Origin: Arbacia lixula
Taxonomy: Eukaryota; Echinodermata; Echinoidea; Arbacioida; Arbaciidae
NCBI GenBank assembly: GCA_963669155.1
Contig: OZ022595.1
Coordinates: 1,325,001-1,389,000 of the forward strand
Direction: 5' to 3'
Length of the DNA stretch: 64,000 bases
Shown: positions 4,179-62,910 of the stretch, piece after piece
Numbering within the stretch: position 1 is the first letter of the stretch
How the letters are laid out: each line of letters starts with the position of its first letter
Program-made: the position numbers and the translations under genes
The notes under the pieces: generated by a model
Databases searched by the model: none
Seen by the model: only the letters and a program-made list of their open reading frames with translations
Told to the model about the DNA's origin: nothing

Positions 4179-6938
4179 GTAAGTAACAAACACATTGCCT
4201 TCTTCTTTTGTATGGCACTCTTAATGCCTGTTTGATACCGTTTGTAGGCTGAATTGCCTTCTAGGATGAACCACGAGGGGTCGGCATCTTTAACCTGTTT
4301 TCCTCGAGAGGCTTTCTGGCCACTCCACCAGGTATTCACCCTGCTCTTAATCGAGAAGTGAAGTGGGTTCTTCAACATGATCTGGACCTCCATTTACAGT
4401 GTCCAATCCGAGAGACGGAGTGTTTTCCCACGAAGGGGAGAGGCGCGAAAACACACAACTGGCTCTTTTGCAAAGGACTTATGTGGGACTCAAACCCACG
4501 GCCTTGCCATGGAGAGACAAGCTCTCTACCAAGGAGCCACACTGCTCTCCCTCAACGCATTTGCTAAGAAAGATTCAATCCGTGCTTCTGTTGTTCTTTA
4601 GACACCCAGTGATTGATGTCCAAACGCAATCCAAAATTCATATTAGACAAATCTTTGGCATACTGGTTGTCCAAAACTCGGCGGTTTCTGTAGCCTAGAG
4701 ACTGAAACTGCAAAGCTGTTCGCACTGTATCGATGTATTAATGTGAGGGGACTCTGTAGGGAGCCACGCTTGGACAGCTGACCACTAGTCAGTACAATGC
4801 GGTTTATTAATGTAGATTATGATTGCTACGAAACGGGGTGTTTGAAACGTGACCAAGGATAGTCATTCATTTTTCCTGATAGGGTTTTTAATGCTATCAC
4901 TGAGATTGCTTTCAAGTTTTTGTTACATTACACTGCTTATCTATGGAGTGGACTATGGGGACTTTCATGGCTATTGTCAAAAGCCTACCCTGTGTTTGAA
5001 CCTATCATAATTTTCTTTTATTTATGGCTCCTTAATGTGTGCATTTGTTTCATAGTTTGTTATCTTCTTTAAAGTCGTACTTGTGTTTAGCTCTGCAAGG
5101 AATATTTCATGAGTTACATCAAGGAAAGATGACTGTATAATCATTTTATAACATTCAAGTTGTTTGCACTCCTAAATATGATCACAATTGATGATATATC
5201 ATCTGGTTTCTAGGCTCATGTCATGGCATGCAATTATGTATTTTGATAAAGAAAATGTGCTCAGAAAAGCTCCCTTTATGTGTAAGTAAAATGCCCATTT
5301 TTCTGCATTTCCATCAGATACAAGAGGATATTTTCCGTGGGCTCTCATGGAGTCACAACATACAACCCCAACACCATGGAGGTCACAAACCAGGTAAGAA
5401 AAACCAGCTCATTATGAGGTACCCCAAGAAACTGCATTACACAATTGTTGTTTTCATTTAATTATTGTAGCACCTGAATAGAGCTCAGCGCAACAATATT
5501 TTTCAGTGACAGCGGCCTCATTTTTCCAACTTTTATAGGATGCCATGTAATATTTCTGTTGTTTTTTTTCCAGTTTGTCATAGCAGTTAGTACACAGAAG
5601 CAATATTAGAAGGTAAAGCTAAGATGCCTATGGTTTTTTTTTTTTTTTTTTTTTTTTTTGGGGGGGGTATATCGTGATGATGGATGATGCAGTGTGTTCG
5701 GGGGATCGGATACATGTGCTCGGCTACGCGACCTGCCGAGCATTTCTAGTATATTTATTAGTATTATTTACCTAGTTTAGTCCCTTCAGTGGTCAAACAC
5801 TACCAGGGTGCCCTGCATTCATATTTTGACATTTAAGACAACATGGTTTACATAGACACAAACAAATTACATGTCCAGTTCAATGACAAATTTACATTGT
5901 ATACATTAATACATTTTCTGGTTTATTCATACAATTATTATTGTTCACCCCTTCAAAAAGGAGTTTGTAGACTTTGAAAAAGTGACGATGAAGGATGAAG
6001 TACTTTTAAATGTGCGTGATGATTGATGAGAGAAATGTTTATAGTCTTCCCAAATGAGACATTGGTGTGATGTCCGGTGACAAGAATTTCATCATCACAG
6101 TAAAGAAAGGCTTGAGAATGTGAAGAGAATGAGCAGAAATAGGAAATTGGCAGAAAATATGTCCCTTTTGGTTCCAAACCTGAACCTTTCGGTGTTGTGA
6201 CCATACAGTCAGTTTCAAGCTTAATGGTCAATTCATTATTGAAGTGAAAGAGGGGTTCTGACCATAGTTGGAACGACTAGAAAACGCAACATGAACGTGG
6301 CTTTTGATATTCGCCATCTATCTACCACAGTGGACATACAGTGAATTCCATCAGATCGCACCAAACACTGATGCAACTAAACACAGCTAAACAATGACTT
6401 CACCATGGCCATGAAGAAAGGATTCTGAACATAGAAATCTTAAAAATGCAATATGAACGGGGCTTGTGATATTCCTTATCTATCCATCGCAGTAGCCATA
6501 TAAAGAATTCCCTGGGATTGCACCAAAGCAGCCAAACACAGCTGAACAAGGAAGAAGGAATTCTAAACATAGTTAAAAAGACAAGAAATTGCAATATGAA
6601 CATGGTTTTTTATATTACCTATCTATCCACCACAGTGGCCATACAGTGAATTCCATAGGATTGCACTTAACATCAATACAAATCTGAACAATGACTTCAC
6701 GGTCTAAGTGGAGAAGGGATTCTGAATGTAGTTCAAAAGACTAGAAAGCACAATATGAATATGGCTTTTGATATTCCTTATCTATCCATCAACCAACAAT
6801 CCATGTGTCCTTATATGTGTGCTATTTATTTATTTAAAAATGTAATCTTGTTTTAACTTTGTAATTACCTTTGCAAGCCACTTTTATTTACTCGTAGGAC
6901 TGCCATCCTGAATTGTTTTGAATAAATATAATTTACTT

Positions 6939-6992
<54 letters not shown>

Positions 6993-9900
6993 CTTCTACT
7001 ACTTGTACTACTACAGTGGCCGTACAATGAATTCCATGGGATCGCACCAAACACCAAGGCACAGCTGAACAATGAATTCATAATCACCGTCAAGAAAGGA
7101 GGGAAGAAAGCCGAGACGATGCGTTTCTCCACAGAGCACAGGGCAGACGTCATTACAGAGGCCTTGGTAAGAATGGATTGGAATGAATTCTTCACCCTTT
7201 CATTACTGAGTCCTAAAAAAACCATTGTCTTTCAACACATCTTCATTCCGATGGTAATAAGGGAGTTAACCCTTTTATTGCCAGGCCTTGAAAGCCCCAT
7301 AGGCTTACTACACATCTTCATGTCCATGGTAATAAGAGAGTTACAGCTGTTTTCACTCCTCTTCCCGAAACTCCCTATTCAATATTAGTTTGTTATCAGT
7401 TAATTGAGTATTCGTTATTATGATTTGCGAATGAAGAGGGGGAAATGACAAATCTCCCCTTCTTTTATCATCGTTTGTGTTGTTTGATAAGAATGTCTTT
7501 TATCCGGTAATTGCAGTTTGTCCATGAAATAGAACAGTAATCAAAAAAGGGTAACACCAATGCATTTGCGAGCAACTTTGCACTGTCCACAGTAAGATAT
7601 TTCCTCACTCTTCGAAGTAGTGCTAATCTTGATGCAATTTTATTAGATGTGTAGTTGACATGTTCCGACCAGTTTAGGTGATGGTCAAGCCAAATACCAA
7701 GATACTTCGTGCTTTCCACCTGTCTGATAGGCATATTGTTAACAATAATATCAATGTTTTCCTGCATGTAAGATAACTTTTGTGGGGTTCCTATTAGCAT
7801 GAACTGGGTTTTATCGGTATTCAGAGTGAGGTGGTTATGTTTTAGCCACAAATTTAGCCTAATTAAATCACTATTCAGGGCACACTCAATTTCTTTGGGA
7901 TTTGAAGCACTGAACATGATGGCTGTGTCGTCGGCATACATAATCACCTCACTCTGTTCAACTGAGGAGGGCAAATCATTCATAAACAATGTAAATAGCA
8001 GGGGCCCAAGTATAGAGCCTTGAGGTACCCCTGTTGGAAGTATCTGCACCTCAGACCTTGACCCTTGTATTATTGTACTTTGTGTTCGACCTGTTAAATA
8101 AGATGTAAACCACAACAATGCGTTATCACGAACGCCGAACATGCGTAATTTGTGAAGTAATATATTATGGTTTACAGAGTCAAACGCCTTTCTGATATCC
8201 AAAAATACTAATCCCGTCAACCTACCGCTATCCATGTTCTTGTATAAATAATCACTTACATATGTCATCACAGTATTAGTGGAATACCCCTTCCTAAAAC
8301 CTGACTGATGTGGGGTAAATAAATGCATCTCAACTAGGTACTCATGTAACTGACTGTGCACAGCCTTCTCTAATAATTTCATGATTACTGGGATAATTGA
8401 TATGGGACGGTAATTGTTAACACTATCCTTATCCCCACCTTTGTGAATAGGCGTTACCCTGGCCTGCTTCCATTCTTGAGGGATAACTCCTAGCCTGAGT
8501 GAGAGGTTAAATAGCTGAGTGATTTGTTTACAGATTAAGGGGGAAGCAATCTTCAGAAGCCTGGCACTTAAACCATCAATACCTGTTGCCTTTTTAATGT
8601 TAACAGATTGTAGTTCTCTAAGCACAAAATCCTCTTCTACATTAACAAAGGCAAAGCACGATTGAGTACTCTCTGGCAGATTATGTAAGGAAAGTGTAGA
8701 TTCTGTAGCATGAAATCCAGCTGCAAGTTCACTTCCAATAGACACAAAGAACTGATTAAAAGCATTTGCCAATTTAAGAGGGTCAGTCTCACAAGAATCA
8801 AGGAGATTTAAGCTAGTGGGTACACTTTGTATAGAAGTAGGAGTGAGACTCTTAAGTATCTTCCACAATTCAGAAGGGTTAGCTTTGTTTGATACAATTT
8901 GATGGTGACAAAACTCTTTTCTTAATGTGTTTCCTAGGTTATTGACATAATTTCGACAGGTTCTGAAATGTTTCCACTTTACTTTATCCCGTGAACCTTC
9001 AGCCCTTTCTCGGAGTACATCTCTCTCACGTGATAAATGAACAAATTCTGTAGTAACCCAAGGTGTTTTTACTCCTCTAACTCTCAATGTAACAAAAGGG
9101 GCGTGCTTATCACAAATTTGCATGAAAACACTCTTCCACATGTTCCACCCATCTTCTACATTGTCTAGTTTAACAATGTTTTCCATGTCTTGCAAATCTT
9201 CAGAAAAAGACTGTAAATTGAGACGTGCAAAGGCCCGTGTACGCACAACACGGGGTTTTGCCTTCGGTCTGAAATGTTTACAAACAACATACACTAGTCT
9301 GTGATCACTTATACCATGTGAAATAACATTTGTCTCACATACATTAGATGGACGATTTGTAAGAACAGAGAGGTGTAAGGAATGGAGTCAGCACGAAGTG
9401 TAATTTATTCCTACAGCAGTCGCGTGCATTGATATCACAATGGAATATTTGACGCGTTTGGCTCTTTGATCGAGGGAGATCCGCCGCCAAACAAGCATGA
9501 CAACATGCAGGATGCATTTTGAGAAATATATATTCTGTATGCGCAGAAGATTTCAGAACCACTTCATGAACTGAAGTGCATGTGCAATAGTATTACATCT
9601 TATAAAGATACGATTCTGTGAATTTCAGATTATATTGTTGCTTCGTTTTTGTGATAAAAGGAGAATACTGTAGAAAACATGCCAGAGAAATGCCTCCATA
9701 TCGCACATTTCCGAATCATATTTCCTTAAAAATATCTTGTAAATTGTTTATTGAGTGTTTAATCTTTCATGGAAACAATCTCAATTTCGTGTGCGGAGGT
9801 GTCCGGAAAAGTTACGGACCAAATTCTTTCTACAAGTTTTTTCAAAATTCCCCTTCGCTCACCCCAAAACTAATTCACAGTGTGTGTAAATAGATCAGCT

Positions 9901-12900
9901 ACGAGCTCCCAGCGAAGGCTGAACGGTTGACATGCTTCTCAAAACAGATTGTCTTTTATTATTCAGAGGAAGGCACTACCTAATTAGAAATACAGCTAAT
10001 TGTTTAAAACACCTGAATGTCTTGAATTGTTATGAGGCGGCGGACCTCATATATCAAAGGAAGTCTATCCGAGCGCAGTCCATCCATGATAGGTCCATGG
10101 TAAGAATAAGGTCTATCAGAGTTGAGCTATTCTCAGTGACTCTGGTTGGATCATTAATCATTTGACATAAGTTGTGCTGCTTACACAACTTTTTGACAAT
10201 TCGACCTTCTCTTTTACAATACATGTCATAGTTAAAGTCACCCAAAATGTAACATTCAAGACCTGTGTGGGTAGCTAAAGCAATAGTATTATCTATAACT
10301 TCATAATAATCCATTCCTGAGGAAGGAGGTCGGTAAAATGTCCCAATCAGCATAGGTTTAGATTTGGTCAATGTCACTTCTAACCAAACACTTTCAATAT
10401 GTGGGTGTTCCAAGTCGTATTTCCGCTTATAAACTATCGTGTTGGATATATAGACTGCAACACCACCTCCCTGGCGATTTCGATCATTTCGTTCAATTGA
10501 GTACCCTTCCAATCGTATTTCTGCATCATTGATAGTACCATCTAGGTAAGTTTCAGAGAATGAGAATATATCAAAAGGCAAGTTATCAAATTTCTCACGT
10601 ATATGATCACATTTTGAGAATAAGCTACAAATATTCAAATGAGCCAATTTCAAACCTCTACTCTGTATGTTAACAAGAAAACTAGAGTCCATCGATTGTT
10701 CATTTAGTTCTTGGTCATTGTCATTGCAATTCTTGCATGTCCATTCTATTTGGGGTGCTCCCAGGGGGTCGTCGAGCATGGAGATGGCTGAGCCAGCACA
10801 TTTGAGGTGCCAGCGCTCTCTACACACAATACAAGTAATTTCCCTTTGCGTTGGGCGGATTCGTTCATTACAGTCCATGCATACTATTGTGCTTTCGATG
10901 TTACCATGGGCACCGGTAGGGATGGGATTCGGCACATCTGGTTGGTCAGAAGTTGGGCTCCAGCCAACCACAGCTCCGCGGAGATGGATCTTGGGAGCTC
11001 TACGGCCGCGATGAGTCCGCCTTTTACGTCCGATGCGTAGGTCACAGATCCTGCTCCACACGTCGTGTGGTAGCATTTGATGCCAGCAGGTGTTGAGATG
11101 ATGAAGTGTGGGTACATCATAACATATGTGGGTGGTGTTATATGAAGGCAAAGCCACATCCCGGTAGCTCTGAGTTATGGGATCATTGTGACTCGCTACT
11201 TGCGTTGGACCTGGATTCAGTTTAACATCGCCAGATAACATGATAGCAAGTTGAAAACAGGCAGTAGAGTTATTATAATAGGGCACTGGCAGACTATGGT
11301 ATCTCACCAGGTATTCCGTTGATCCGTTCTCTATACGTTCTCTCCTCCATTCAGTGTCACAAAGGGGTAGGTTGCATTCATGCTCTGCAGTCAGGGGATT
11401 TGTGAGCAAGGTCACAATGAAGCCCAATGTCCAAATCCTAATCCACTCCATTGTTTGTAGCAGCAGGCCTTAGATCCTTCATAAAAGTCTGCTATCTACA
11501 CAGTAGGGTACCGCATGATGCCTATGTCATGTGCAGAGGAATGATAATGGTGGCCTCAACTCAGTGGCAACTAGCAGAGTGATACCCAGAAAGTTTTACT
11601 TGGAAAATGCAATGTTGAAACACCTAGTCGCCTCTCCAAAATTGTCCTGTAGAATGACGTCCACACCATGAATCTCCAGTTGAGTTCAGAATACAGCTTC
11701 AAGGTCACCTTACAGAACAAAATGAAATACAACACAGAGCACACAGAATCTGTGGGGCTACCTGGAAGGCGCACACCAACACAACACATGGCCAGAATTG
11801 TTTTACAGACCAATACACTCACACCAACCTCTGAAATGTTTAGAAGCCTAAAGTGGATAGATATGGAAAAACGCTGGCAATTTCAAAAAGGAAAACTCAT
11901 GTTTGACATTTTGAATGGCAATGCGCCCTCATATTTACAAAACATGTTTACACCTTCCATTACAGTGCATCGCTATAGGACAAGAAACGCTGAAAACAAA
12001 GGCTTACTAGTTCCCAAAACAAGAACAGAGAGTGGAAGGAAGGCTTTTTCTTTTGAGGGTGCAGTTCTTTGGAACGCTCTTCCAAACCAAGTAAAGAATG
12101 CCCAATCCAAGAACACATTCTGCTCTCACTACCTGAAATTTTGTGAATAATAATTGTTTAACATCTACCAGTCTAATGATTCATGTTAATGACATACCAT
12201 GTCAGACAAATTATCCTTCAATGTTACTTTATGTGTGACTTGATTTTTTGTATGACCATCTCTTTAGTTTCGATGATATTCAATCAAAATATCTGTAGGA
12301 TAATCCTTGAAATTGATGCTCGATTACTCTTTGATGGGAGAATGTTTTGATCAAACATGATTTATGTTTCTGTGAGCTCTTTATTTTTGGTACAATACAT
12401 TTTATACTTACACTTTGAAAAGACATATTATTGATGCTCGATTACGTTTTACTGGGAGAATGTTCAACATAAGTGATCAAATTGTAATGATCAAGCTGTA
12501 TGTTTACACCCTCTATCGTAATTCCTGTTTCCGTTCTCTTTATTTTTGGTGAAGTACAGGTATACTTTGCAAAAATATATTTCCTCATGAACACATTTAC
12601 TGTCATTTAATTAAAGTATAACTCGGTGTCAGATATATGTCATCTGCTATTTATATTTAGCAGGTATACATGAAATGGTATCTACTTTTATTAAGACTTG
12701 ATGTTAATAGTCCTTTCGAAAGAAGATTTGTATTTATACTTTTTGTATATCACCCTACATATTAGCGAGGCATAAATATTAGTATCAATCACATAATTTT
12801 TAGTCAGAAAATGTACAAGGTTTCGCTTGTGTCATGCATGTGGAAGCATCGGTTCGCCTTCTTCTTTTTGTTATGTTCCTTACTAGATGACCTACGCTGC

Positions 12901-15900
12901 TTTTTGGTTTACAGCATTTGTTTGTGTAATCTATGTGTCTATTTGTTTATCTATTCATGTTACTATATATTATTGTGTTATTTGTACACAGGGCCCCCAG
13001 GGAGAACAGTGCCAAGCTCACTGATGGGGCTACCCTGTTTAAAAAAGACTTAATAAATAAATAATAAATAAATAAATCGGACTAACGACAAAAACATGCT
13101 TGTTTCTTCTGATTATAGAAATACCGTGCGCAGTTTGGAGGAGGAAAGTCGACCGTAGACCAAGTAAGTATGTCAGCACTCAATATATGGTACCACTATA
13201 TGTATTATCACATTTTCAAAGGGGAACTTGACCCTGAAAAGCAGTTGATTTGAATCTAAGCAGAACAATTGTGAGAAGCAGAGTGATAAGTGTGAAAGCT
13301 TTTAACCATCATTTTTACACCATTGAGATAAAGATTTCAGATTTAATGGTGGCATTGAATGAGCAAAAAAAAACAAATTGCTACCATATATTGCTTCCTA
13401 GTTTCACTGTATTCTAGTATTGGCCCCTTTATCTCATAGTTTTGATAATGGAATCATTCATTAATCCATTATATACTGAAACCGCATATTTGAGGGCTGG
13501 CTTTTCTCCATTTAGACACTGAGCAAACATGACTCCCCCGTAATATTCTGTATGGACAATATATGACAGGATATGAATAAACATTAAATTCCTTTTAGGG
13601 TGCAATTAAGCCGCACCCCTTTAGTTACTTCAGTTTCATGGGAAATGTTGGCATCCTTGCTGGACCATTGCTCACGAGGCTCAAAGACATGAGCAATGGG
13701 TTACAAGAATGTACTTTAATCATGAATTAAAGGGTGAAACATGGATTATGTAATGCTAAGTGTTGTTCTCATGTCTTGTCTCAGAGATACAATGCCTTCA
13801 AGCATCATTGGAGTGACAACAGGAAGTCAGTCGTCCTAGAGATCACGCCTTGCTCCGTCGACCAGAAGGACGTAGCGTCGGGGAGAACAATCTGCTCCTA
13901 CTACTTCAAAGATATAGAGGGATTCACATTGGTAAGCAGAAGCATGCTCTCAATTTACATGGTTTGCATTTTGCTGCTTTGTCATAAGTGTTTTCTGCCA
14001 TGGCAAACCAAAACAACTGCTGGAATTTGTAGTGTTTAAAGGACCTAGCTCACTAACGGAGACGTCGCGGTGACTCATGAGACTGGAAAATGGCTTCTAC
14101 TCTCACTAAGGCGATGTCGCCGTGACATATTCCTGTCTATATTTACCTAGATATACAAATTCTACTGTCCTATGGCTTTCTCCTCAGTCTCCTTGGTCTC
14201 GAGCAAGTTTCGGTTCATCCCGATGTTGCGGAGATGTTACAGGGACATCTCTCCTTTATCTTTTTGTGCTTTTCTCCTTCTTCTCCTTGTCTTCCTTCTC
14301 CTTCTCCCCCTCCTTCTCCTTCTCCTTCTCCTCCTCCTCCTCCTCCTCCTCCTCCTCCTCCTCCTCCTCCTCCTCCTCCTCCTCCTCCTTCTCCTCCTCC
14401 TCCCCCTCCCCCTTCTCCTCCCCCTCCCCCTTCTCCTCCCTCCTCCCCCTCCTCCCCCTCCTCAGAGATGGTGTAGCTAGGCTAAGCTGCACCCTCGCAT
14501 CACAGTATAATTCTAAGAGTACAAACTTTGTTTTTCTCTGTGTGTGCAGGTGAACGGCTATCCTGGGGGATTTGCAATCGCACATGGTGGATTCAGCAGA
14601 ATGGTAAGTAAAGAATTGGTGTACATATTTTTGAGTTGGACCATGGCTGAAAAGAAGCAAAGAAATTAAAGAGATTACCTACAAATATAGAGGCTAAATA
14701 GGTATTTGTATAAGGTTTTCAGAATAATTGATATGTATGAAAATTAAAAGCACATCCTTCAAAAAATAGGCTTTTGATCCAAGGTTCATTTGACCAGCTA
14801 GAACTAATTCATCTTTAACAATATGTTGTTCATGGTAAACCGCAAACCTTGTCTGAGGTTTGTCTGACTGGCAACAACTACTGAATAAGTGGTAATTTTC
14901 ACGGTTTAATATTTCACGAATTTTGCGTGTCATTTATAGCGAAAATTTGCCTGTTGGTTCATGTCCATTCACGCTTATGAAAGCACCTCTCAAATTGTGA
15001 AAAACAGCACTCGCGAAATGTGAGATTTACTCCCAAATCGTGAAAATATGTGTATGCGAAAATATTGGCGTGTACAGTAATTCATACAGAGTGCTCTACA
15101 CCCATTGATAGTGAATCACTAGATGTAGGTGAATGTAGTAACAGTATGAAGACAGCTTATTGTCTTGGAAGATGGCTGATTGATCTTGAGTATTTTGCCT
15201 TTCCTTAGCATCTGTTTGCGACGGAGCAGAGAGACCAGCTGATCAAGCAGGCTTCTGAGTTTGCTGCCACCTATGTCGGTGTCATTCTGAGGTTACGCAG
15301 AGAGGCCATCACGTTTGAACAGTTCTCCAACAACAGGCTGGGCAAATACTGGTGAGTGAAACATTCAAAGTACGAAAGCAAATTCAGTCAAACACGTACA
15401 GAAAGACTACCCAAGGGAGACAAGAAAGGTCATCTTCACAAACAGGTGGTCTTTATAGACAGGTTACTTTAAAGACCAGTGCTCTCTTATGGAGCAGAAA
15501 CATGGACCACAACTAAGAGGCTGGAGAGAAAACTAAGAGTAACCGAAAGGGCTATGGAAATAATTATGATTGGTGTTACAAAGATGGACAAAGGTAGAAA
15601 CCAGGATTTGAGAAGGAAAACCAAAGTGCTTGACATAGTACAGGAAATTAAATCAAAGAAATGGAGGTGGGCTGGTCATCTGGCCAGAGGGAAAGATAAT
15701 GGACACATAAATTAACTGTCTGAACCCCCAGAGCTAACACCAGAGGAAGAGGCAGGCAAAGTAGGAGGTGGATGGATGATATTAGAGAATATGGTAGTGT
15801 GACATGGAAACAAACGGTACAAGATAGATCAAAATGGAATAATGAGGAGGAGGCCTTCCTTCAGCAGTGGAGAGAAAGAGGCTAGATAGATAGATAGATA

Positions 15901-18900
15901 CTTAAAAGACAGGGAAACCTTTTTGCAGGTCCAAAACATGATTTTTGTGAAAACCATAAAAGATGGAACAAAATACTGTAGAAGAACTTCCCTCTAAATA
16001 ATAGAACCGGAAACCACGTTTGAGCAAATTATATTGACTATTAGAGTAGGAGGAGGTTTTTATTGATTCACTAATAATAATTTCTGCAAATAATTGAAAT
16101 CATCCAAGGTTGTGATCCTGTGATGAAAATCAATGATTTTGTGACAGCATCAGAATTTTTTTTTGTGTGTCCCATAAAGTTAGTCTATGTTTAATATGCG
16201 GTCTAAGTTAAACAGCGGTTTTGAATATCGGCCATGGAGCATAAGTTTGAAAAGCATGTAGATGGATGATGAGAAACGTATTGCCAAAAACATTATTTTC
16301 TCTGGTATGCGACTATTAGGATAGAAATCTTAGTCTGCTTATGTTTGTGTGAACGCTGTCCATACCATGGCCTTTATTTTTGGTGCAGTGGAGACGAGGC
16401 ATTGACATCGCTCCTAGGTAGCTTATATTCAATGACAGTTATGCATATCAAGCATAAGAAAATAAGGAAGGATGATAAAAAGAATATGACAAAGTCCCCC
16501 ATTTTTTCTGGTATTTGACTTTTAAGACAAAGGTCCTAATCTGCTTATGTTTGTGTGAACGCTGTCCATACCATGACCTTTATTTTTGGTGCAGTGGAGA
16601 CGGGACGTTGACATCGCCCCTTGTGTGCTTATAGTAAATAGCAGACAAATATATTGAGCATAAGTTTGATGAAAATTAGGAAGGATGATAAAACTATATT
16701 ACTAAAATCACTATGTTCTCATGTATTTGGCTAGTAAGACAAAGGCACTAGTCTGTTTATGTTGGTGTGAACGTTGTCCATACCATGACCTTCATTTTTG
16801 GTGCAGTGGAGACGAGGCGTTGACATCGCTGGCGGAGTTTGGGGTGCAGAAGTGGACACTGAGACACAACGAGCCTCAGCGTAGGGTGCTTTGCCTGACC
16901 GAGACATGTATAGTAGAGAGGGATCCTGCCAGCTACAGCGTCGTCACGGTCAAACCGCTGTGTGACGTAAGTTTAACCAAGGCCTTGTTGCATAAAACTT
17001 ACCACTCATTGTAATTTTGCTAACAATGGTAACCTCTATAGAAACCTAGAACTTATCACTGATGGTAATTTTGCTACCAATGGTAACCTCTATAGAAACC
17101 TAGAACTTACCACTGATGGTAATTTTGCTACCAACTGTAACCTCTATAGAAACCTGTACCTTTCCGCTGATGGTTATTTTGCTACCAATGGTAACATCTA
17201 TAGAAACCTAGAACTTACCACTCATGGTAATTTTGCTACCAATGGTAACCTCTATAGAATCCTATAATTTGATTGGCTGTCAAGTGATGTCCCCATGGTA
17301 GTTACTATTAATGACAGAGTTATCATTAATGGTAAGTTTTATGCAACAGAGCCCTAGGTATATTGGTTGTGGACTGTAGCTAAAGATCTGGGCCATGTTG
17401 CATATACATATAGGTTTTTCAACTCCAGTAACTTACCATTAATGAGAAATACCATGGCAACAACCAATTAGCTATCATGATTGCACCTGTTACCATGGTA
17501 GTTACCATTGATGGTAAGTTACAATAATTAACAACCTACATGTATATGCCACATTGTCCTGGGGGTGTTTCACCGAGATGTGCAAACATTTTTAATGACT
17601 CGACGGATGAATGGTGACCTGCTCTTTGGTGACAAATCAGATTCTCAATGATTTTGATTCTGCTTGAAATCAAATCTTTGTATATTATGATTCTTGTTGT
17701 GAAGAAGCATCAAGATACAAAGTTTATAATTCGTCAAATGTAATTAGGATTATTGGAAAAATTAAATCCCACTATGTTAAACCAGAAACAAATTCGAGTA
17801 TCTCATTTAGCACAAGAACAGGTCACCAGTTGTGTGTCATGTGTTTGCGTAACTTATGCACATCTCAGTGAAACAGGACCCTCGTATATTGGTTGTAAGT
17901 TACAATAATTGAAAACCTATGTATGCAACATGGCCCACTTATCATGTTGAAATCCTATATGCCCATACTGTACTCACATTGTCTGAACCTTCCCTTGTAT
18001 GTTTTTCTCTCATCTTGAAGATATTTGCAATAATCCGGAGCCAGGAAAACCCTCAGATGTTTCACCTAGAGTACGTCAGAGGACACATTAGGAAGTACAC
18101 CTCAACAGATCGGTAAGTTGCCATTCTGGGCCCTGTCGCATAAAACTTACCATCGATGGTAACTTTGAAAGATACCAATGGCAATTTCTTTAAGAACTTT
18201 GAATGTGATTGGCTGTTGAGCGGTATTACCATGGTAGTTATCATTGATGGCAGATTTACCACCTTTTTGTCATCTAAGGCCTGCGTCACGATCATGTGAG
18301 ACTTGTAAAGGAGAAGAAAACCACCAAATATAGTGGGTGTGATGTGAGAGAGCGAGTGGGAACAAAGATATAGTAAGTGAGACAAGTAAGTGAAGATGAT
18401 ATAAGCCAAACTAGAATTTGACAAATGTGGAACTAAATTGCAAATCTAACCGTGAGCAACAGGTTAACGGTTAATAGTAGGTATGCATAACAGTGTTTTA
18501 AATGGAATTGCATCGGCTGTGTTTCCACCAGGGATAACTTAATAGCTGGTGTGCTGGACGGTGTGAGGGCGAGTGGGAACAGAGACGTATGCGTGAAGAT
18601 GACCCCCACTGACCGGGGCCAGAGGCAGCAGCCTCTCTATGTTCCAGTGGACGAAGACGTTGAGAGCCATCACCTCCGTTTCTTGGCTGTTCCGTACAGT
18701 AAGAAGATCTCTCTTTCCTTCTGTATTTAAAGGGTTTCATTCCTAAAGGGATGAAGTCTATATCTTTTTAATATCTATTTATATCATGTGGAGGACATTC
18801 ATCTTCCTTTCTTGATTTACAGAGTTTAATTTTTATTTGTTAATTTTTTATCAAAATGTATTTATTCTTTTAAAAACTCATTTCCTACATAGGAATTAAA

Positions 18901-24900: not shown

Positions 24901-25773
24901 AAGTGATATGAAATAACAGTAACTGACATTGACTTATTAGATACTGAATTGAATTGAAAGGTTTCAGCTAAATCCAACATCGCTGCCTGAAGGCCGAATT
25001 AGGTTCAATGTACAATTGGAACATGTATAAGTACATGTAGCTTGACACACAATTTGCATAAAAAGCTGCATGTGCATTGTTTAATTATAGTTCACTCGGA
25101 AATTAGTTTTATTTCAATAAAAGGAGATTTATGTTTTTACACACATATCACCATGAAAAGAATGTATTCCTTCATCAAGGAACATTAAAAAGGCAATTTA
25201 TGGAAAAAGTAGTACACAACATTTGGGAACGCACCTTGCATGTGACGTCACAAAATCAAAACTTTAAAATCAAATAACTTTTTTTGCCTTTGACCGATTT
25301 TTGTCAAACCTTCACTAATATGTTCCTTTCATGTTCCTCCTTTCATTGAAACCAAGATAATTTCAGGGTGAACTATCCCTTTAAGGAAAAAAATTTGCCC
25401 AATACCCACATATTTAAAGTTATATTGATCCTCTTGTTTTTCTTTGTTGCAGCATCCGTCCATGACAGTAGTGAAAGGTGCAGGTCTAGTGATGAAGGCC
25501 ATCATAGAGGTAAGGATTGGTGATTCATTTATCTCTCTACCCCTTCTCAGTCCATCTAGCTAGCTGTCTGTCTTATGTATGTATGTATGTATGTATGTAT
25601 GTATGTATGTATGTATGTATGTATGTATGTATCTATTTATCTATCTATCTATCTGTCTATCTATCTGTCTATGTATCTAGCATTCCCTCCAGCCCATCTC
25701 AGTCCAGCTACATATTTATCTATCCATCCATCCATCATATTTATCTATCCATCTGTCCCATCCACCTATCTAC

Positions 25774-39314: not shown

Positions 39315-39347
<33 letters not shown>

Positions 39348-39436
39348 ATGTCTGTATGTCTGTATATCTCACCGTCATCTTCTTCTTCATCATGATGTAC
39401 ACCGGATCAAATGTGCTTCCTCTAGCATGGTCAGTA

Positions 39437-39467
<31 letters not shown>

Positions 39468-40139
39468 ATGTCTGTATATCTCACCGTCATCTTCTTCTTC
39501 ATCATGATGTACACCGGATCAAATGTGCTTCCTCTAGCATGGTCAGTATGTTTGTCTGTCTGTCTGTCTGTCTGTCTATCTGTCTATCTATCTATATATT
39601 TCACCGGCATCTTCTTCTACATCATGATGTACACTACCTCAAATGTGCTCCCTCTCGCATAGTGAATCTGTCTGTCTATCTGTCTGTCTGTCTGTCTGTA
39701 TATCTCACCGGCATCTACTTCTTCATCATTATGTACACCTGCTCAATCATGCTTCCTCTCGCATGGTGAGTATGTCTTTCTGTCTGCTTATATATTTTAC
39801 GGGCATCTACTTCTCCATCGTGATGTACACCGGCTCAAACGTACTTCCTCTTATTAAAGAAACATATCAAAATGGCACTTACAAACCATTAGGGTATGAA
39901 TGTGTGGAACATTACTTTCACAAGAATCCAAGTGAGCCAGCTGTTCATTGTGCAGTGATGTTGAGAAAACTTACCCTCATTTCATTTCATTGCCTGATAT
40001 TCTGTCTTCATTCACAGGTTCCTGAAGTATGCACACATGAGACAAGCCTTCAGATCAGAAGAGGTATGAACCCGGTTTGAATCTTTCATTGAGGATCATG
40101 CTAATAGTGAAAGGGGGAGGAGAGGAGGATTAGGAAGAG

Positions 40140-40195
<56 letters not shown>

Positions 40196-40274
40196 AGAAG
40201 AGGTATGAACTCGTTTTGAATCTTTCAATGAGAATCATGCTTAAAGTGAAAGGGGGGGAGGAGGATTAGGAGAT

Positions 40275-40334
<60 letters not shown>

Positions 40335-46300: not shown

Positions 46301-49300
46301 GTGGTGATGGAGTGCGTATGGGTATAATGGTGGTGGTGAAGGTGGTGGTGTTGGTCATGGTCATGGTGGTTGTGGTGATGGTGATGGTGATGGTGAAGGT
46401 GAAGTTGATGGTGATGGTGATGGTGATGGTGATGGTGATGGTGATGGTGATGGTGATGGTGATGGTGATGGTGATGGTGATGGTGATGGTGATGGTGATG
46501 GTGATGGTGATTGTGGTGGTGGTAGTGATGATGGAGGTGGTGGTGAGGATCAAAATGATTTGCAATGTCGCCTCTGGGCTGTGAAAATTATTTTCTTGTG
46601 AAATGAATGAATGTTCCATGTCCTGTATTCTGCCCTCCAGCAAGTGGCTAACAACCTCGCGAACCTGTGCTTCATGGCGCTGGCCAGACTAGCTGGTTAC
46701 CAGGAAGGGGACAAGGCCACTCCTGAGAACCCTGCCATCAGGAAGTCACTCAATGCCCTCCTCACACCTTATCTTGCCAATCAACTCGGGACAGAGAACC
46801 CCAACCAGGTAGGCTACATGTGCAGCAAATTGATTGTGCTTTTTTGTTTGTGTGTTCACCTTCTTCTCCGTCTCTTTCCCTTTCCTTCCCCATCTCCGTC
46901 TCCTTCTCCTTCGCCTCCTGTTCCTTCTTCTTCATTTTCTCTTTCTCCTCTTCCTCCTCCTCCTCCTCCTTCTTCCTCCTCCTCCTTCTCCTTTGTCTCA
47001 TTTTCCATCTCCTTTTCTTTCTTCTTCTTCTTCTTCTTCTTCTTTTTCTTCTTCTTCTTCTTCTTCTCCTTCTTCTTCTCCTTCTCCTTCTTCTCCTTCT
47101 TCTCCTTGTTCTCCTTGTTCTCCTTGTTCTCCTTGTTCTCCTTCTCCTTCTCCTCCTTTGCTTCTTCTTCTGCTTCTCATTTTCACTCTTTATTTCTCCT
47201 CTTGTTTCTCTTTCTTGCTCTCCTATGTCCTGTTCTCCTTCTGTTCGATCTCCTCCTTCTTTCTAAAGTGCCTCTGCGTGACATGGTAAACTTCCAAAAA
47301 GGCAATCAACCCAGCAATTTGAAATATAAATCTGGATGGCAATAATTGTCACATCTTGTTCAAACTCTATTTTGTTGATGTGCTCTTTGTTCTCAGGTTC
47401 TGAAGATTCTGAACAGCAATACTGAGAACCCGTATCTCCTGTGGGATAACTCTACCAGAGTCGAGCTGACGGAGTATGTCAAGGAGCAAAGGACTAATAA
47501 GATCAGAACGGTGAGTATGGCATGATTGAGTTATTCATTTAATATTGATAGTGAGAGCACTGTGGACTAGTGGTGAGAGCTCTTGACTCTTGCAGAGAGA
47601 TCTCGTGTTCACCCCCAGCCCGGTCCGTACACCCTTGGACAAGTTCTTATGCTCATGCTTGTCCCTCTCAACCTAGGCAAATTAAATGGATATCTGGTAG
47701 GATTTACTCCGGATCTGATTCAATCAACTAGCTTCTAGCCGTTCATACTTGGCTACTTTACTAAAACCAGGGTAATAATAAAGCGCTATATAAGAGTCGG
47801 TTATTGTTCTTAATATTGTTGGTATTATTATTATGATTATTTTTATTATTAGTGATTATTGGTTGGGTTTATTAGTCATTAAGTAGTATTTTCTTTCTGG
47901 TAGAATATAATATTTTATTTTTTGGAGTACAACTTCTTTTGGGTAAAGGTTGGCTTCCTGTGCATCTGGATGATCACTTTTTCAAATCATTAATTATCTT
48001 GTTTTTTATGGATTGTACATTTTTCTTAGTGTTTACTGGTATTTTTGTTGATGTGATCGTATACTGCATTTATTACCCATGATAAGTTTCCATGATTTAT
48101 ATCATTAATTACCTTGGGCTTTCTTTCTGTCAAGATTGGGCTTTTTACTTTTTTTTAATAGCCTATTATGTGTATTTCATATATTTTTGTTTTATTAATG
48201 TCCTAGAATATCCACACTATATACAAATTGACAGTTGTAGTTCCTATTGTACTCTCATTAGATACATTTGAAATCAAGCAAAAAAGAAAGTAGTCAAATC
48301 AAAATGAATTTGAATTTGAATTTGAATTTTGAATTTAGCTGTAACACATATTCTTTCTTTCTGTTTTGCCTATGACAGGGGGATTGTGACCCCAATTTTG
48401 GAGCGGACTTCACCTTCAGTGCCCATGCCAAAGAACTCATCGTTGGAGACATCTTCGTGCGCATCTTCAACGACATGCCAACATTCCCTCTTCATGTAAG
48501 TATGAAGTGAAAACACATTAATTTATACCGAAATAAAAACAAATTCATATACCAAATAACATTTACCTGATATGAATGAATTATTATGGAACCATGATGA
48601 ATTATTTCAGCTTACATGTTGCTTTCTTACAAGGTGTAAGAAGGATACGAAAGGATTGAAAACATAATCCTCATTATTCGCATTTATTAATCCTAGTATA
48701 CCAAAGTGCTCATATTGACACCCTGTTTTTCTCTCTCCAGGATGCGAAAGGCTTCCAAAACCAATCATCAGTCTAATTTATTAACCCTAGCATACCAAAG
48801 TGCTCATATTGACACCCTGTTTTTCTCTCCCCAGGATGCGAAAGGCTTCACCAACAGCCTGCTGGATTACCTGGGCTCCCAGGCCCAGTACCTGCACTCT
48901 CTCATGGCCCTGACCGCTAAGGAGGTTGACACCAGTCAGTCCAGCCAGCAAGCTGACCGGCTCAAGAACTGTGAGATGGCGCTGGACGCTCTGGCCAAGG
49001 TCATCAAGAACAACCCTGGTACTGAGATCCAGTGCAACGGTCACTACAAGCTGCTCTTCTCCCTGCTCAGACTGACCGGTGCTACTCAACTGCAGCTGCT
49101 GGCTCTAGAGGTAGGTAACACATGCAGACGCACACACAGATACAGATACAGATGGACATATGTACAGACACACAAGCACATACACACAGGCATACATACA
49201 CACAGACACACAGACACACAGACACACAGACACACAGACACACATACACACATACACACATACACACATACACACATACGCACACACACACATACACACA

Positions 49301-50327
49301 TACACACATACACACATACACACATACACACACACACATACATACACACATACACACATACACACATACACACATACACACATACACACACACATACACA
49401 CATACACACATACACACATACACGCATACACGCATACACACATACACACATACACACATACACACGTACACACATACACACATACACACATACACACATA
49501 CACACACACATACATATACACATACACACATACACACACACATACACACATACACACATACACACATTCATACAGACACACAGCTGCTTGCCCTAGAGGT
49601 ATGGGACACATACAGACACACAGACTCACACACAGAAGGACATATACACAGACAGACAGACAGACACATGCACACATGCAAACATATGCACAGCTGCCTG
49701 CCCCAGAAGTACCAGACACGCACACACACTTTTATTTTAATCAGTTTTTATTCCCAATTCTTCAGGTTTTAGACAATAAACGAACATAAACGAGCATGAA
49801 AATCAACTTAATTATGCATGAATATATAAACTTTAAGGCATTATGCACATAATTAACATAACAATTTCATTCACATCCCCTTTGCAATGATTTTGTTCTG
49901 TTCTGTTAAAGTTTAACAAACCTTCTGAACAGAGACAAATATCTACCACAAAACAAAAAAACAAACTAATAAAATATAATTGATAAATACACAGACGCAC
50001 GCACAGATGCACCCAGGCACACACACAGACACACACACATTGAGACACACACACATTGAGACACACACACAGACACAGACACAGACACAGACACAGACAC
50101 AGACACAGACACAGACACAGACACAGACACAGACACAGACACAGACACAGACACAGACACACACAGACACAGACACAGACACAGACACAGACACAGACAC
50201 AGACACAGACACAGACACAGACACAGACACACACAGACACAGACACAGACACAGACACAGACACAGACACAGACACAGACACAGACACAGACACACACAG
50301 ACACAGACAAACAGACACACACACAGA

Positions 50328-50362
<35 letters not shown>

Positions 50363-50389
50363 CTAGGCATACACACATACACACCCCAC

Positions 50390-50466
<77 letters not shown>

Positions 50467-53400: not shown

Positions 53401-56400
53401 ACAAGCGACTGGTGATCCCTTCTTGTGCTAAATCAGAATCTCAATGAAACAAGGCGTGGTAGCGCATTAAGTACAAGAAGGGATCGTAACTTACAAACAG
53501 CTTGGTGAAACACCCCCCTGTAATGATTGTTGTACCGGTATGATCGACCATGTGTCACAGGGCACCAATAATTAGGTGGTCTTTCGCCAACAACAGATCA
53601 CCTCTTAATTTCGTTAGAATTTTCTTTATCTTCTTCTTCTTCTTCTTCTTCTTCTTTATTTTTATTCCTTCACCCCCACTTTTTTGTGCCGCGCATAACT
53701 CATAATTTCCTACACAATTTTTATTGAAACTTTTATCACTTCTTGGTATTAATGTTATCTTTTAGGAATAAGCTTTTCAAGGTTATCACATGATCATGAC
53801 GTCATCAACGAGCAATTTATTGAAAAACTATTACTTCATCCTACCCGAGAATGGATAATTGGATCAAAATGAAATTTGACATGAATAAATTAAACAAGTT
53901 GACAAATAATTTCATTACCAAAAAAACGCGCGCGTACGCAAAAAACATGACTGTCTTTAATCGGCCATATCTCCTCAGAATGGCTGGTGATCCCCAATTT
54001 TTTTTTACTATTCGAAAAGTGTATGAAATGTAGATGTGATTTCATATGTCATTTCACCTGTAAGTTCATCTTGACGACATCATATTGCCATATGAATGAA
54101 AAAAAGGAATTTTCAATTATGACGTCACTAACTTTTTTACCCGTTTTTGCATATCTCAGTAATCCTTAGTCAATTTTCTCCCCAATTTTATTATTAGGTA
54201 GCTTAGACATTGCTCTACGAATTACTAGCCTTCCTTTTTTAATATAATTCCACATTCTTGGTATAAATTTGATTATAGACATTAATGTCAAAATCGGACC
54301 TATCTACGTGCAATGTCAATGGAAGGGGTATTTCTGAATTGACATGACGAGCTTCTAGGAGCTGTATCTCGCTTATGTCATGGACCTATCATGGATGGAC
54401 TGCGCTCGGATAGACTTCCTTTGATCTATGAGGTCCGCCGCCTCATAACAATTCAAGACATTCAGGTGTTTTAAACAATTAGCTGTATTTCTAATTAGGT
54501 AGTGCCTTCCTCTGAATAATAAAAGACAATCTGTTTTGAGAAGCATGTCAACCGTTCAGCCTTCGCTGGGAGCTCGTAGCTGATCTATTTACACACACTG
54601 TGAATTAGTTTTGGGGTGAGCGAAGGGGAATTTTGAAAAAACTTGTAGAAAGAATTTGGTCCGTAACTTTTCCGGACACCTCCGCACACGAAATTGAGAT
54701 TGTTTCCATGAAAGATTAAACACTCAATAAACAATTTACAAGATATTTTTAAGGAAATATGATTCGGAAATGTGCGATATGGAGGCATTTCTCTGGCATG
54801 TTTTCTACAGTATTCTCCTTTTATCACAAAAACGAAGCAACAATATAATCTGAAATTCACAGAATCGTATCTTTATAAGATGTAATACTACTGCACATGC
54901 ACTTCAGTTCATGAAGTGGTTCTGAAATCTTCTGCGCATACAGAATATATATTCCTCAAAATGCATCCTACATTTTGTCATGCTTGTTTGGCGGCGGATC
55001 TCCCTCGATCAAAGAGCCAAACGCGTCAAATATTCCATTGTGATATCAATGCACGCGACTGCTGTAGGAATAAATTACACTTCGTGCTGACTCCATTCCT
55101 GACACCTCTCTGCTTATGTTCAATTCTGTTACTCTGAAATTTTAGTATGCTGTAGCTGAGTCTACTAGCTTTCGGGGACGTCACCTCCATTTTTTAATCA
55201 GATGTCGGGATCATGGCGAAATTTCAGCTTGATTATCGATTTCTTACTCATTCTAACCCCTGCTGGGCATTACGTGTTAAGTGAATGGGAAGATTTGTGG
55301 CACAATGGGTAAGGCGCTGCTTTAAGATCTCGAGGCCCCCGGTTCGATTCCTGGAGTGGGTACGGTCAATTTTTGTATTCCTTTTGCAATGTTTATTTTG
55401 CCACTTTCCTCTGTTCTATCCCTCACTTTGTCATTGTCTTTGAGATTTTCTTTCCCATTCTTTTTCTCTCGCCCCTTTATCTTTACATGATATTAATTCA
55501 TGTTATTAGCACAGACATGTGATCATTTTGTGAAGTCTCTGAAATGTTAGTATATTGTACGTGGCTTTGTGAGTTTTCTTGAGCGTTGCCTCTGATTTCT
55601 AATAAATAGATAGTGTCACCATGGAAAGACGATGGTGTCACCGTGCATTTACCATACCATGTCTGTGCACAAATTTGCCAATGCAGATCACCTTATACTT
55701 GTCCACAAGTATGTCTCGTTGTTTTTGTTATTACTTTTCATATTCTCTTTGCTCGTATTATTATCATATTCAGTAGTATGTTGTTTGTTATTAGTATTGC
55801 TGTTAATGTAATTGATGTTTTAATTGTTCTCATTAATATGAATGAAATTGATCATTATCATTGGAAATTGTATTTTTACGATTACGATTATTGTTGTTCT
55901 TGTTGTTACGACAACCCCAGGTGGTCTAGTCTACCTACTAGACCTGTTCTTTAACTCTACCAACCCATCTCATTGTTACCTTACATAGGTGGTCTAGTCT
56001 ATCTTCTAGACCTGTTCTTTAACTCCACCAATCCCTTCATTGTTACCTTACATAGGTGGTCTAGTCTATCTTCTAGACCTGTTCTGTAACTCCACCAACC
56101 CCACTCATTGTTACCTTACATAGGTGGTCTAGTCTATCTTCTAGACCTGTTCTGTAACTCCACCAACCCCTCTCATTGTTACCTTACATAGGTGGTCTAG
56201 TCTATCTTCTAGACCTGTTCTGTAACTCTACCAACCCCTCTCATTGTTACCTTACATAGGTGGTCTAGTCTATCTTCTAGACCTATTCTGTAACTCCACC
56301 AACCCCACTGTGAGAGAGAAGACTGGGGAGCTGCTAGCTAAGATGCAGTCTGACAAGCTGGTCGGGCCTCGCATCCGCATCCTCTGCTGCAAGTTCCTGC

Positions 56401-57869
56401 CTCCCGCCTTCCTTGACGCTATGAGGGACTCCCCTGAGGCCAGCGTCGTCATGTTTGAGAGTAGGTGGCTTAGTGGTTAGGCGTCTGGGTGGGTCAGTAG
56501 GTTATGAGTTTAAACATTCGAGGGGATCAATGCATTGTAGTATGGTTCCATTCCACCTTGTGCTGGTCCCTGCTTCCTCAATTCTATGCTTGAGATTGAG
56601 TGGCTCAGTGGTTAGGTGTGCTGGTTGGGCCAGTGGGTTATGGGTTCAATTGTCCAGGGAACTTTTGTTTGTGATATTTCCTTACATTACTTTTCATTCT
56701 AGTCCATGAATAATGCCTAGTTATCATTGAGTCGATAGAGAGCTTATGAAGTTTGCTTATGAGCAGTTTGGTGCGTCGCAGGCCGCAATTGTGTAAAAAA
56801 AAAGAAGACGGGAGCTGATTGTGATGACTGTCACGGTCACTTAACTCTTCCGTCTTGGAGCTCTCCTTTGCCGTTTCAGACTTCAGTTCTTGCGTGTATC
56901 CAACAAGCACTTCTGGCAGAATGCTATTTTGCAAGAGAACCTCCTGGAAACAAACAGAATGGTGGGATACTTCGACTTGTGCACGCGCAGATCAATGTTT
57001 TTGCTTGGCTTATGGTCCTTTTCACCTCCTGTCCTGAAATTGTAAGCTCACAAGTGTCAGAATGGCCTCAGAGTATGACCCTACTCCCAACATGCTTGTT
57101 GCCTTGCAGGTGTGCAGGAGAACCCAGAGCTGATCTGGAATGATGAGTCTCGGGAGAAGATCTCCAACATCATCGTCCGGATGAAAGACAGGTAAGCTGT
57201 CACCATGGCAACACGTCCCTAGCCTGCCTTCATACATGTAGGCGCTGGGATGATCATAATCAAAGTGTGCAACAGCGTCTTGTACTCACAAGACTTATTC
57301 CTGTTCCATTCTCCTCATTTCTCAGGTTTTGAAGTTTTCCTTCGCTGTTCTGGAGAAGAACTGGAGACTGAATAGGCAGCAGCCAGACCCATTTGCTGTA
57401 GAGTTTGGATTAGAAAGGCCCAATTGCCTAAAGTGTGATGTCACATTAACATGCCTTCTATAGAGGCCAAGCTATGGTGGTACATAGTGGTGACTCTCAT
57501 TGAGAGTGACTGACAATGTTGAATCAGCAAACCCCATGTTTCCATCCTCCTCTTGTCCCCACATTTTAGTGTTCTCGTTTAGAACTACAAGCCTGTATAC
57601 CAGTGAATAGCAATCGCTGCTCTATATTTCCATCATATCTTGATGGATGAAATTATAAGAACATCCAATCTAAAATCATGTATACATAGGTGGAATATAT
57701 GTTTCTGTAGTCCAAAAAAATCTGTGCTGTCGTAATGAGTGGATGCATATATTGAATAGAAATGTTCCCCAAGGATCTTATTTGATTGAATGTCATCCTT
57801 GCTTTGCAGGCATTACAAGGAGCAGAAGGACAACCCTGATGCTGCGTGGAAGGTAAGGATGGATTGAAG

Positions 57870-57925
<56 letters not shown>

Positions 57926-58203
57926 AATGACAATAACATTTACAAATATACATTGATCACAATATAAATATACTTATGTAAGAGTAATCAAAGTAAACAG
58001 CAAATGAGCTAAGCATATGTAGATATTGCCATGATATTAACATTAGTTGCAGAGCCTCAGACAATATGCTGAGTATCACTTTGCTTTCCTTCTACCTCCC
58101 TCTTTCTGTCTGTATTTCTGTGTCTCTGACTGTCTCTGTCTCTCACCATCTCTTGCCTCTCGCTGTCTCTCTTTCTCTCTCTTTCTCTCTCTTTCTCTCT
58201 CTT

Positions 58204-58235
<32 letters not shown>

Positions 58236-60254
58236 TTTCTCTCTCTTTCTCTCATTCTCTTGTTATATGCTTCCACTACCTCTCTCTTCCTCTCTCACTC
58301 TAATGAGTCTATTTGTCTCTCACCCGTCTGTCTCCGTCTCTCTCCTCAGCTTCCAGAGGACTTCTCTGTGTCCAGCCAGATCTCTGATGAGATCGTGATT
58401 GGTGGTGTATACCTACGCCTCTTCATTGCCCAGCCGACCTGGGTACTCCGCAAGCCCAAGGAGTTCTTGGTGGAGCTCCTGGAGCAATTCACTCAGCTTG
58501 TCAACATGAACAACCCAAATGTGAGTGCCCTTGGGAGTTAAACTCTTGTGATGGTGGTATTGGTGGTGGTGATGGTGGTATTGGTGGTGGTGATGGTGGT
58601 AGTAGTGGTATTGGTGGTGGTTGTGGTCGTGGTGGTGATAGTGGTGGTGACGGTGGTGGCGGTGGTGGTTGTGGTGGAGCTGCTGGAGCAATTCACTCAG
58701 CTCGTCAACATGAACAACCCCAATGTGAGTGCCCTCTGGAGTTAAACTCTTGTGATGGTGGTATTGGTGGTGGTGGTGGTGGTGGTGGTGGTGGTGATGA
58801 TGGTGGTGGTTAAGGTGGTGGTGGTGGTGGTGGTAGTAGTAGTAGTGGTAATGGTGGTGGATGTGGTGTTGTTGTTGGTGGTGGTGGTAGTAGTGGTATT
58901 GGTGGTGGTTGTAGTGGTATTGGTGGTGGTTGTAGTGGTATTGGTGGTGGTTTTAGTGGTATTGGTGGTGGTTGTAGTGGTATTGGTGGTGGTTGTAGTG
59001 GTATTGGTGGTGGTTGTGGTGGTATTGGTGGTGGTTGTGGTGGTATTGGTGGTGGTTGTAGTGGTATTGGTGGTGGTTGTGGTGGTATTGGTGGTGGTTG
59101 TAGTGGTATTGGTGGTGCTTGTAGTGGTGTTGGTGGTGGTTGTTGTGGTATTGGTGGTGGTTGTAGTGGTATTGGTGGTGGTTGTGGTGGTATTGGTGGT
59201 GGTTGTAGTGGTATTGGTGGTGGTTGTGGTGGTATTGGTGGTGGCTGTAGTGGTATTGGTGGTGGTTGTGGTGGTATTGGTGGTGGTTGTGGTGGTATTG
59301 GTGGTGGTTGTGGTGGTATTGGTGGTGGTTGTAGTGGTATTGGTGGTGGTTGTAGTGGTATTGGCGGTGGTTGTAGTGGTATTGGTGGTGGTTGTAGTGG
59401 TATTGGTGGTGGTTTTAGTGGTATTGGTGGTGGTTGTAGTGGTATTGATGGTGGTTGTGGTGGAGCTGCTGGAGCAATTCACTCAGCTCAGCACACCCCA
59501 ATGTGAGTGCCCTCTGGAGTTAAATCTTGTAATGGTGGTATTGGTGGTGGTGGTGGTGGTGGTGGTGGTGGTAGTAGTAGTAATGGTATTGGTGGTGGTT
59601 GTGGTGGAGCAGTTCACTCAGCTCGTCATCATGAACAACCCAAATTTGAGTGCCTTCTGGGCTCTGTTGCATAAAACTTACCATTGATTGTAACTTTGCT
59701 ACCAATGCCATTTTCTATGGAAACCTTGAATTTTATTGGCTGTCAAGCGATTTTACCATGGTAGGTACCATTGATTGCAGAGTTACCATTTATTGTAAGT
59801 TTTATGCAAAGGGGCCCTGGAGGTGAACTCCAGATTCGTAAAAGGAAGTTGCAAATTTGTGACAATCACGATTTTTGTTTTTGTTACAACAATCACATAT
59901 TTGCCTCTATATATGCAACCCTTACCCTAAACTAAACATTATTGAATTTAAATTGTGAATTCATTGAAGAAACCATCAACATGAGGACAATTGAATTAAA
60001 TCATTCTAAATTACATGTTATAAAATGAAATTGAATTTGTTTTTCCACCAGGGTGACTCCTTGGAGATGGTGACAACAGGGGTCGTGTGCTTCTTCACGG
60101 CTCAGCCAGTCATGGCTGACCAGATGCCGCAGCTCGGTCATCTACCGGTCATCACCAAGTGTCTCAAGAACCAGAATGATGCCATACCAAAGTGCGGACT
60201 GATGGTGCTGCACAGTATATCCAACAGTGATGTGAGTATAAAGGGAAAGAGGGG

Positions 60255-60292
<38 letters not shown>

Positions 60293-60587
60293 CAAGTGAA
60301 GTGAGGTAGATAGAGAAGGAGAGAGAGAGGGAGAGAGAGAGAGGGAGAGAAAGGTGGAGAGAAAGAGGGAGAGAAAGAGGGAGAGAAAGAGAGAAAGAGG
60401 GAGAGAAAGAGGGAGAGAAAGAGCGAGAGAAAGAGGGAGAGAAAGAGAGAGAGAAAGAGGGAGAGAAAGATTGATATAAGTAAAGAGAGATAGATAAAGT
60501 AGAACCAGAAAGATGCCTTACCAAAGTGCAGACTGATGGTGCTACATGCAACAGTGGTGTCACCGAGGAGGGAGAGGGAGAGAGAAA

Positions 60588-60639
<52 letters not shown>

Positions 60640-60670
60640 GCGGGAAGATAGAAAAGGAGAGAAAAGGAAT

Positions 60671-60720
<50 letters not shown>

Positions 60721-62910: not shown

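Follow-up and report, generated by a model that had tools for sequence, protein, structure and literature searches.

The gene for the DNAJC13/RME-8 orthologue of Arbacia lixula, contained in the 64,000-nucleotide window analysed here (GenBank:OZ022595.1, positions 1,325,001 to 1,389,000; coordinates below are those of the window), was found to carry local copies of the segment spanning the exon-intron boundary at 16 of 99 exon borders, about one exon edge in six. These copies are probably near-neutral duplications tolerated at exon edges, of the type described in amphioxus as mirages. Ordinary tandem duplication, through slippage or unequal exchange, would happen to straddle an exon edge, and the resulting array would be tolerated, since the copy adjoining the intact exon remains functional, as the observed intact frame indicates and as we assume for splicing. 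From the anatomy of the arrays, growth would add copies on the intron side only, so that the exon stays whole while the intron becomes longer. The copied splice sites would be near-neutral remnants, and the spliceosome would pick the real site by position where strength does not single it out.

The host gene was identified by comparison with homologues, with Pfam RME-8_N matched on one exon, and the exon model was built from translated comparison and splice-site fitting up to the window edge, beyond which the final coding exons lie. The model has 51 exons, among them a small one of 45 bases (13119-13163), and with this number its numbering is the same as that of a first-pass annotation made from the sequence alone, in which junctions were named by exon and not by coordinate; of its 101 borders, the scan for copies covered the 99 not belonging to the 45-base exon. 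All 51 donors were GT and all 50 acceptors AG, 2162 codons were open without a stop, and identity was 91.1% to Lytechinus variegatus DNAJC13 (2165 aligned positions) and 89.2% to a Diadema antillarum protein. Comparison of these two proteins with the model revealed gaps at residues 722-752 (exons 19-20) only, and none at the 16 copied borders. Exon 19 (27458-27667) is about 16 residues shorter than in the human protein; Lytechinus and Diadema share this short form, which is therefore common to echinoids and not a defect. At exon 20 (32039-32109), 23 residues are missing in the D. antillarum protein record, perhaps by a gene-prediction fault in that record. It was also noticed that intron 3 contains, upstream of the small exon 4, a LINE-like element on the minus strand (7471-11469), with a reverse transcriptase frame (RVT_1, 7471-9387) and a second frame (10057-11469) with an endonuclease and a PHD-finger match under the Pfam cut-off. 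Open frames at 54585-55137 are nearly the same as some at 9344-9893 on the opposite strand, indicating an inverted fragment of the same repeat in intron 44.

For the catalogue of copied junctions (Table 1), each border was compared with the surrounding 2.5 kb on the same strand, a copy being counted when it extended 6 or more bases beyond the splice site in both directions. The scan confirmed the earlier observation: it recovered all 15 junctions at which the first-pass annotation had reported a copied border segment, one of them weakly (exon 42 donor), and added the exon 45 donor as a 16th. The copied unit included the splice site, as claimed, at every junction named, and the arrays lay on the donor side at some borders (10) and on the acceptor side at others (6); the position of the real site as the copy closest to the coding sequence is a consequence of the geometry. 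The nearest copy was head to tail at 11 of the 16 borders and, according to Tandem Repeats Finder (TRF), also at the exon 25 donor, for which the query of the spacing comparison had been limited to 200 bases; at four borders (exon 3 acceptor and exon 32, 42 and 45 donors) the nearest copy was spaced. In total, 40 copied sites were found, with identities to the real stretch of 65 to 98%; GT or AG was kept in 35 and lost in 5. The exon part of the nearest copies ranged from 6 to 84 bases (median 36.5), and the exonic share of the units was shorter than uniform (mean 0.32, KS P 0.016). The donors of exons 37 and 49 had old, weak copies, the nearest containing 10 and 6 exon bases, respectively. 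The same 16 acceptor bases occur in four copies at exon 45, and the same 9-base donor in three at exon 18. The exon 50 array (60918-61878) has a higher-order structure, in which a 492-base block of 103- and 80-base units is itself doubled at 95%. A separate array of a 32-base unit (62913-63571, about 20 repeats, 97%) begins directly after the GT of the exon 51 donor; it abuts this donor and contains no exon bases.

Table 1. Host gene and copied exon borders in the window
Feature	Position	Strand	Copies and remarks	Detected by
DNAJC13/RME-8 orthologue	4114-62910	+	Exons 1-51	Exon model, homologues, Pfam RME-8_N
Exon 3 acceptor (7017)	6217-7100	+	Acceptor with 84 exon bases copied at 6331 and 6636, spaced; 75-76% identity; AG intact 2/2	Both scans
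Exon 8 acceptor (16807)	16234-16830	+	Upstream copies at 16389 and 16595; unit about 206-212; AG intact 2/2	TRF and scans
Exon 18 donor (26332)	26275-27230	+	Five downstream copies; unit about 140-200; GT kept 3/5	TRF and scans
Exon 25 donor (35665)	35611-36154	+	Copy at 35948; unit 283; 85% identity; GT intact	TRF and border scan
Exon 27 acceptor (38052)	37821-38065	+	Copy at 37930; unit 122; 96% identity; AG intact	TRF and border scan
Exon 28 donor (39298)	39233-39851	+	Three copies; GT intact 3/3; those at 39430 and 39766 keep frame open	TRF and border scan
Exon 29 donor (40064)	40052-40445	+	Two copies; unit about 139-153; GT intact	TRF and border scan
Exon 32 donor (43046)	42987-43334	+	Copy at 43238; offset 192; GT intact	Both scans
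Exon 37 donor (45670)	45655-45965	+	Two older copies; 65-76% identity; GT intact	Both scans
Exon 42 acceptor (48835)	48642-48849	+	Copy at 48741; unit 94; AG intact	Both scans
Exon 42 donor (49111)	49093-50240	+	Weak spaced copy at 49599; 70% identity; CACA-rich stretch; failed stricter filter	Border scan
Exon 45 acceptor (56260)	55919-56309	+	Four upstream copies; unit 68; 94-96% identity; AG intact 4/4	TRF and border scan
Exon 45 donor (56461)	56451-56634	+	Spaced copy at 56596; GT lost; absent from the first-pass list	Both scans
Exon 48 donor (58521)	58468-59660	+	Copies at 58725 and 59503 (GT intact) and 59646 (GT lost); GTGGTG-rich array between	TRF and border scan
Exon 49 donor (60232)	60167-60738	+	Copies at 60301 (GT intact, 6 exon bases) and 60568 (GT lost); about 75% identity	Both scans
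Exon 50 acceptor (61821)	60918-61878	+	Nine upstream copies; units 103 and 80; AG intact 9/9	TRF and border scan

When the entire gene was scanned more strictly, with low-complexity sequence discarded and alignments of 40 bases or more required at E up to 1e-6, 15 of the 16 copied borders were retained, the exon 42 donor falling out, and 27 duplicated loci were obtained, 15 border-spanning and 12 purely intronic; TRF with a period of at least 30 gave 18 merged minisatellite arrays, 9 of them across a border. Introns 1-50 total 52.3 kb, of which the extra copies at the 27 loci occupy about 6.2 kb, border loci contributing 3.1 kb, and the median intron was 1124 bases with a border array (n=14) versus 618 bases without one (n=36), so that the intron growth suggested in the first-pass annotation finds modest support.

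Comparison of the arrays with random placement, as that annotation had proposed, gave a result that depended on what was placed. Upon rotation of whole arrays along the gene there was no border excess: minisatellites covered 9 borders versus 13.8 expected (P 0.90), with 9 arrays versus 7.9 (P 0.39), and all 52 TRF arrays together covered 10 borders versus 21.9 (P 0.999). Duplication inserts sequence, so growth within an intron never brings an array over an exon, whereas rotation lets grown arrays swallow exons; single units were therefore placed instead. The gene was collapsed to one unit per array and the observed unit lengths were placed randomly, units that held a whole exon or lay inside one being forbidden. 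Under this null, 15 of 27 loci were border-spanning versus 4.6-7.1 expected (P 2e-5 to 7e-4), and across 16 threshold settings without masking the excess was 1.9- to 2.8-fold in all, with P at most 0.018. TRF arrays alone, treated as single units under five settings, gave 9 of 18 to 10 of 29 versus 2.9-5.2 expected (P 0.0004-0.02), with 9 versus 2.9-4.8 at default settings (P 0.0007-0.02) and 9 of 26 versus 3.5-5.6 at looser settings (P 0.004-0.07); constrained placement of whole arrays gave 9 of 18 versus 4.3 (P 0.013). Masking of exons and splice sites left 9 of 20 loci border-spanning versus 3.1-4.7 expected (P 0.002-0.024; 10 of 21 in a rerun) and removed 6 of 15 border loci versus 1 of 12 intronic ones; as it also shortens border units, it is harsh on them and may remove too much. 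The strictest complexity filter, applied with masking, left 6/15, 6/14, 6/13 and 4/9 (P 0.04-0.22). The claim that the copied junctions are not a general background is right in part, as 12 of the 27 duplicated loci lie entirely within introns.

In the uncollapsed sequence, local copies covered 16 of 99 borders versus 22.9% of 467 intronic positions of non-low complexity, with no peak at borders; among the controls, coverage was 18-21% for positions up to 100 bases from a border, rose to 26-31% at distances of 100-800 bases and was 12% farther away. In the collapsed sequence, coverage was highest close to the border (16-18% within 50 bases) and dropped to 4.5% at distances of 200-300 bases and to 1.8% past 500. 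Growth-weighted control positions gave 7.5%, a value not comparable near borders, and no conclusion was drawn from it. Old and young loci were both in excess, and among loci with a best identity of at least 95%, 5 of 8 were border-spanning versus 1.3 expected; as the strata use the best pair in each array, they do not date its first event.

Taken together, a two- to three-fold border excess exists under single-unit placement in this gene, which was chosen for showing the pattern, so that the P values are too small by an unquantified factor. Part of the excess probably comes from detection, as a duplicate retains its likeness longer in its exon half: the duplicate of a conserved exon edge should remain recognisable for longer than that of neutral intron. 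At 10 borders with at least two copies, however, identity between the real site and its copies was in most cases similar to that among the copies (exon 50, 0.939 versus 0.966), and the constraint which the detection argument requires is therefore not evident. The rest of the excess may reflect a lower turnover rate in the DNA beside exons or the fact that this gene was selected.

The same excess could be taken to mean that duplication is seeded at exon-intron junctions, as the first-pass annotation had suggested, via transcription, splicing or local sequence, so that echinoid introns grow from their edges. The single-unit result, the part of it that survives masking, its presence among the most alike loci, the peak of collapsed coverage near exon edges and the involvement of acceptors as well as donors all point in this direction. 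Against it, the excess shrinks when exons are masked and is weak at the strictest complexity filter, rotation gives none, most loci share no element, no mechanism is known, and the data come from a single gene picked for its pattern; seeding is possible at most, and we consider it rather unlikely. Its wider form, in which junction-focused duplication repeatedly copies splice sites, echinoid introns grow mainly from their edges and many genes contain near-identical, functional-looking sites among which the spliceosome chooses by position, is doubtful to a like degree. If the junction excess were true genome-wide, it would point to a process growing introns from exon edges.

It is improbable that the repeated junctions are an assembly artefact resulting from mis-joined reads or merged haplotypes. 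One assembly was examined, and copy numbers in the near-identical exon 45 and exon 50 arrays may be wrong; amphioxus drafts disagreed on mirage copy number, one being aberrantly assembled according to PMC3087553 and PMC3902484. However, the copies here are 2 to 35% diverged from the real stretch, with a unit length peculiar to each locus, and the lancelet PGBD5 repeats were confirmed by new reads, as described in PMC3902484.

The properties of the copied sites bear on the proposal that selection maintains the arrays, whether as reserve splice sites, as decoys or as splicing regulators. GT or AG is kept in most copies, although it is lost in five, and mean identity to the real copy was 0.90 in the exon part, 0.91 in the site and 0.84 in the near intron part; thus, conservation of the whole site does not exceed that of the copied exon bases. 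The bases adjacent to the junction were the best kept (0.93-0.96 versus 0.88-0.91 elsewhere in the exon part), which may be caused by the requirement for border-spanning alignments, and judged from the sequence the pattern would roughly correspond to unselected copies of a constrained original. Splicing at a copied site would introduce a premature stop for 38 of the 40; the two others are the exon 28 donor copies at offsets 132 and 468, which keep the frame open and would add 44 or 156 residues. In the exon 28 array, one frame is open for 233 codons (39068-39769), TGTC repeats included. The decoy buffer suggested in the first-pass annotation therefore finds little in its favour, and selection for such a role is highly improbable.

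Scored with a simple consensus table of our own, 20 of the 35 intact copied sites equalled or exceeded the real site, and 10 of the 16 borders had at least one intact copy scoring as well as the real one. Site strength alone cannot explain the choice at these borders, and the real site is presumably favoured by its position, through exon definition and the shortest exon. Besides lengthening introns, the copies offer the splicing machinery several similar sites, and the exon 45 and exon 18 arrays are natural tests of spliceosome choice among identical sites.

An origin from a mobile element inserting at or making splice sites, similar to introners, is scarcely tenable: many junctions in one gene are hit and one pair of loci matches (37821/58468, 55 bases, 71%), but every unit carries its own exon's bases and no similarity was seen in 348 of the 351 pairings of loci. 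An element shared between loci was ruled out, the 3 matching pairs being weakly alike and the others unrelated.

Near-neutral duplication tolerated at exon edges thus remains our preferred reading, and it has precedents. In the passages on mirages in PMC3087553, which cite Canestro 2002 (PMC117041), the term denotes minisatellite-like tandem duplications of exon-intron boundaries in amphioxus, named for Adh3 and extended to the globins BflGb6 and BflGb9; PGBD5 and troponin C are also mentioned in PMC3902484. According to these two sources, mirage units measure tens to a few hundred bases, the BflGb6 copies are 81-100% alike, AG or GT is present in many but not all copies, RT-PCR suggests undisturbed splicing, and haplotypes differ in length, the authors suggesting a route to new introns. 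The A. lixula arrays resemble mirages in unit length, in that the repeat unit spans the boundary at its 5′ or 3′ side (16 of 99 borders, 9 arrays by TRF alone), in that AG or GT is likewise kept in many but not all copies (35 of 40), and in that the normal product would be preserved, to judge from the intact frame and the gap-free proteins of relatives at the 16 borders. They differ in being found in an echinoid instead of a lancelet, in affecting 16 of the 99 borders scanned in one gene versus the one or two per gene named in those passages, and in that some copies are older (65-76%) and spaced; moreover, they are known from one sequence, whereas splicing and length polymorphism are described for amphioxus. 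In mirages the inner copies are homogenised and the edge copies less so; here, identities between real site and copies and identities among copies were similar at most of the 10 borders with two or more copies, with 0.939 versus 0.966 at exon 50.

No junction-spanning repeats appear in the available portions of PMC12783039 and PMC4039745, and no echinoid mirage was found in the one open-access library searched. Minisatellite expansions at exon-intron boundaries are likewise described in human segmental duplications (PMC2812944), where, in the text available, they vary between recent paralogues and alter transcripts, whereas here they lie in a single conserved gene whose protein is apparently unchanged. 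Intron gain by tandem genomic duplication, as in the Rogers model and the potato RdRp case (PMC4974935), likewise involves a duplication carrying splice signals, but there the duplication makes a new intron, whereas here existing introns were lengthened. Set beside the cited passages, the phenomenon itself is already known, and what is new here is the taxon and the density: with this gene and its 16 affected borders, mirages extend beyond lancelets to an echinoid.
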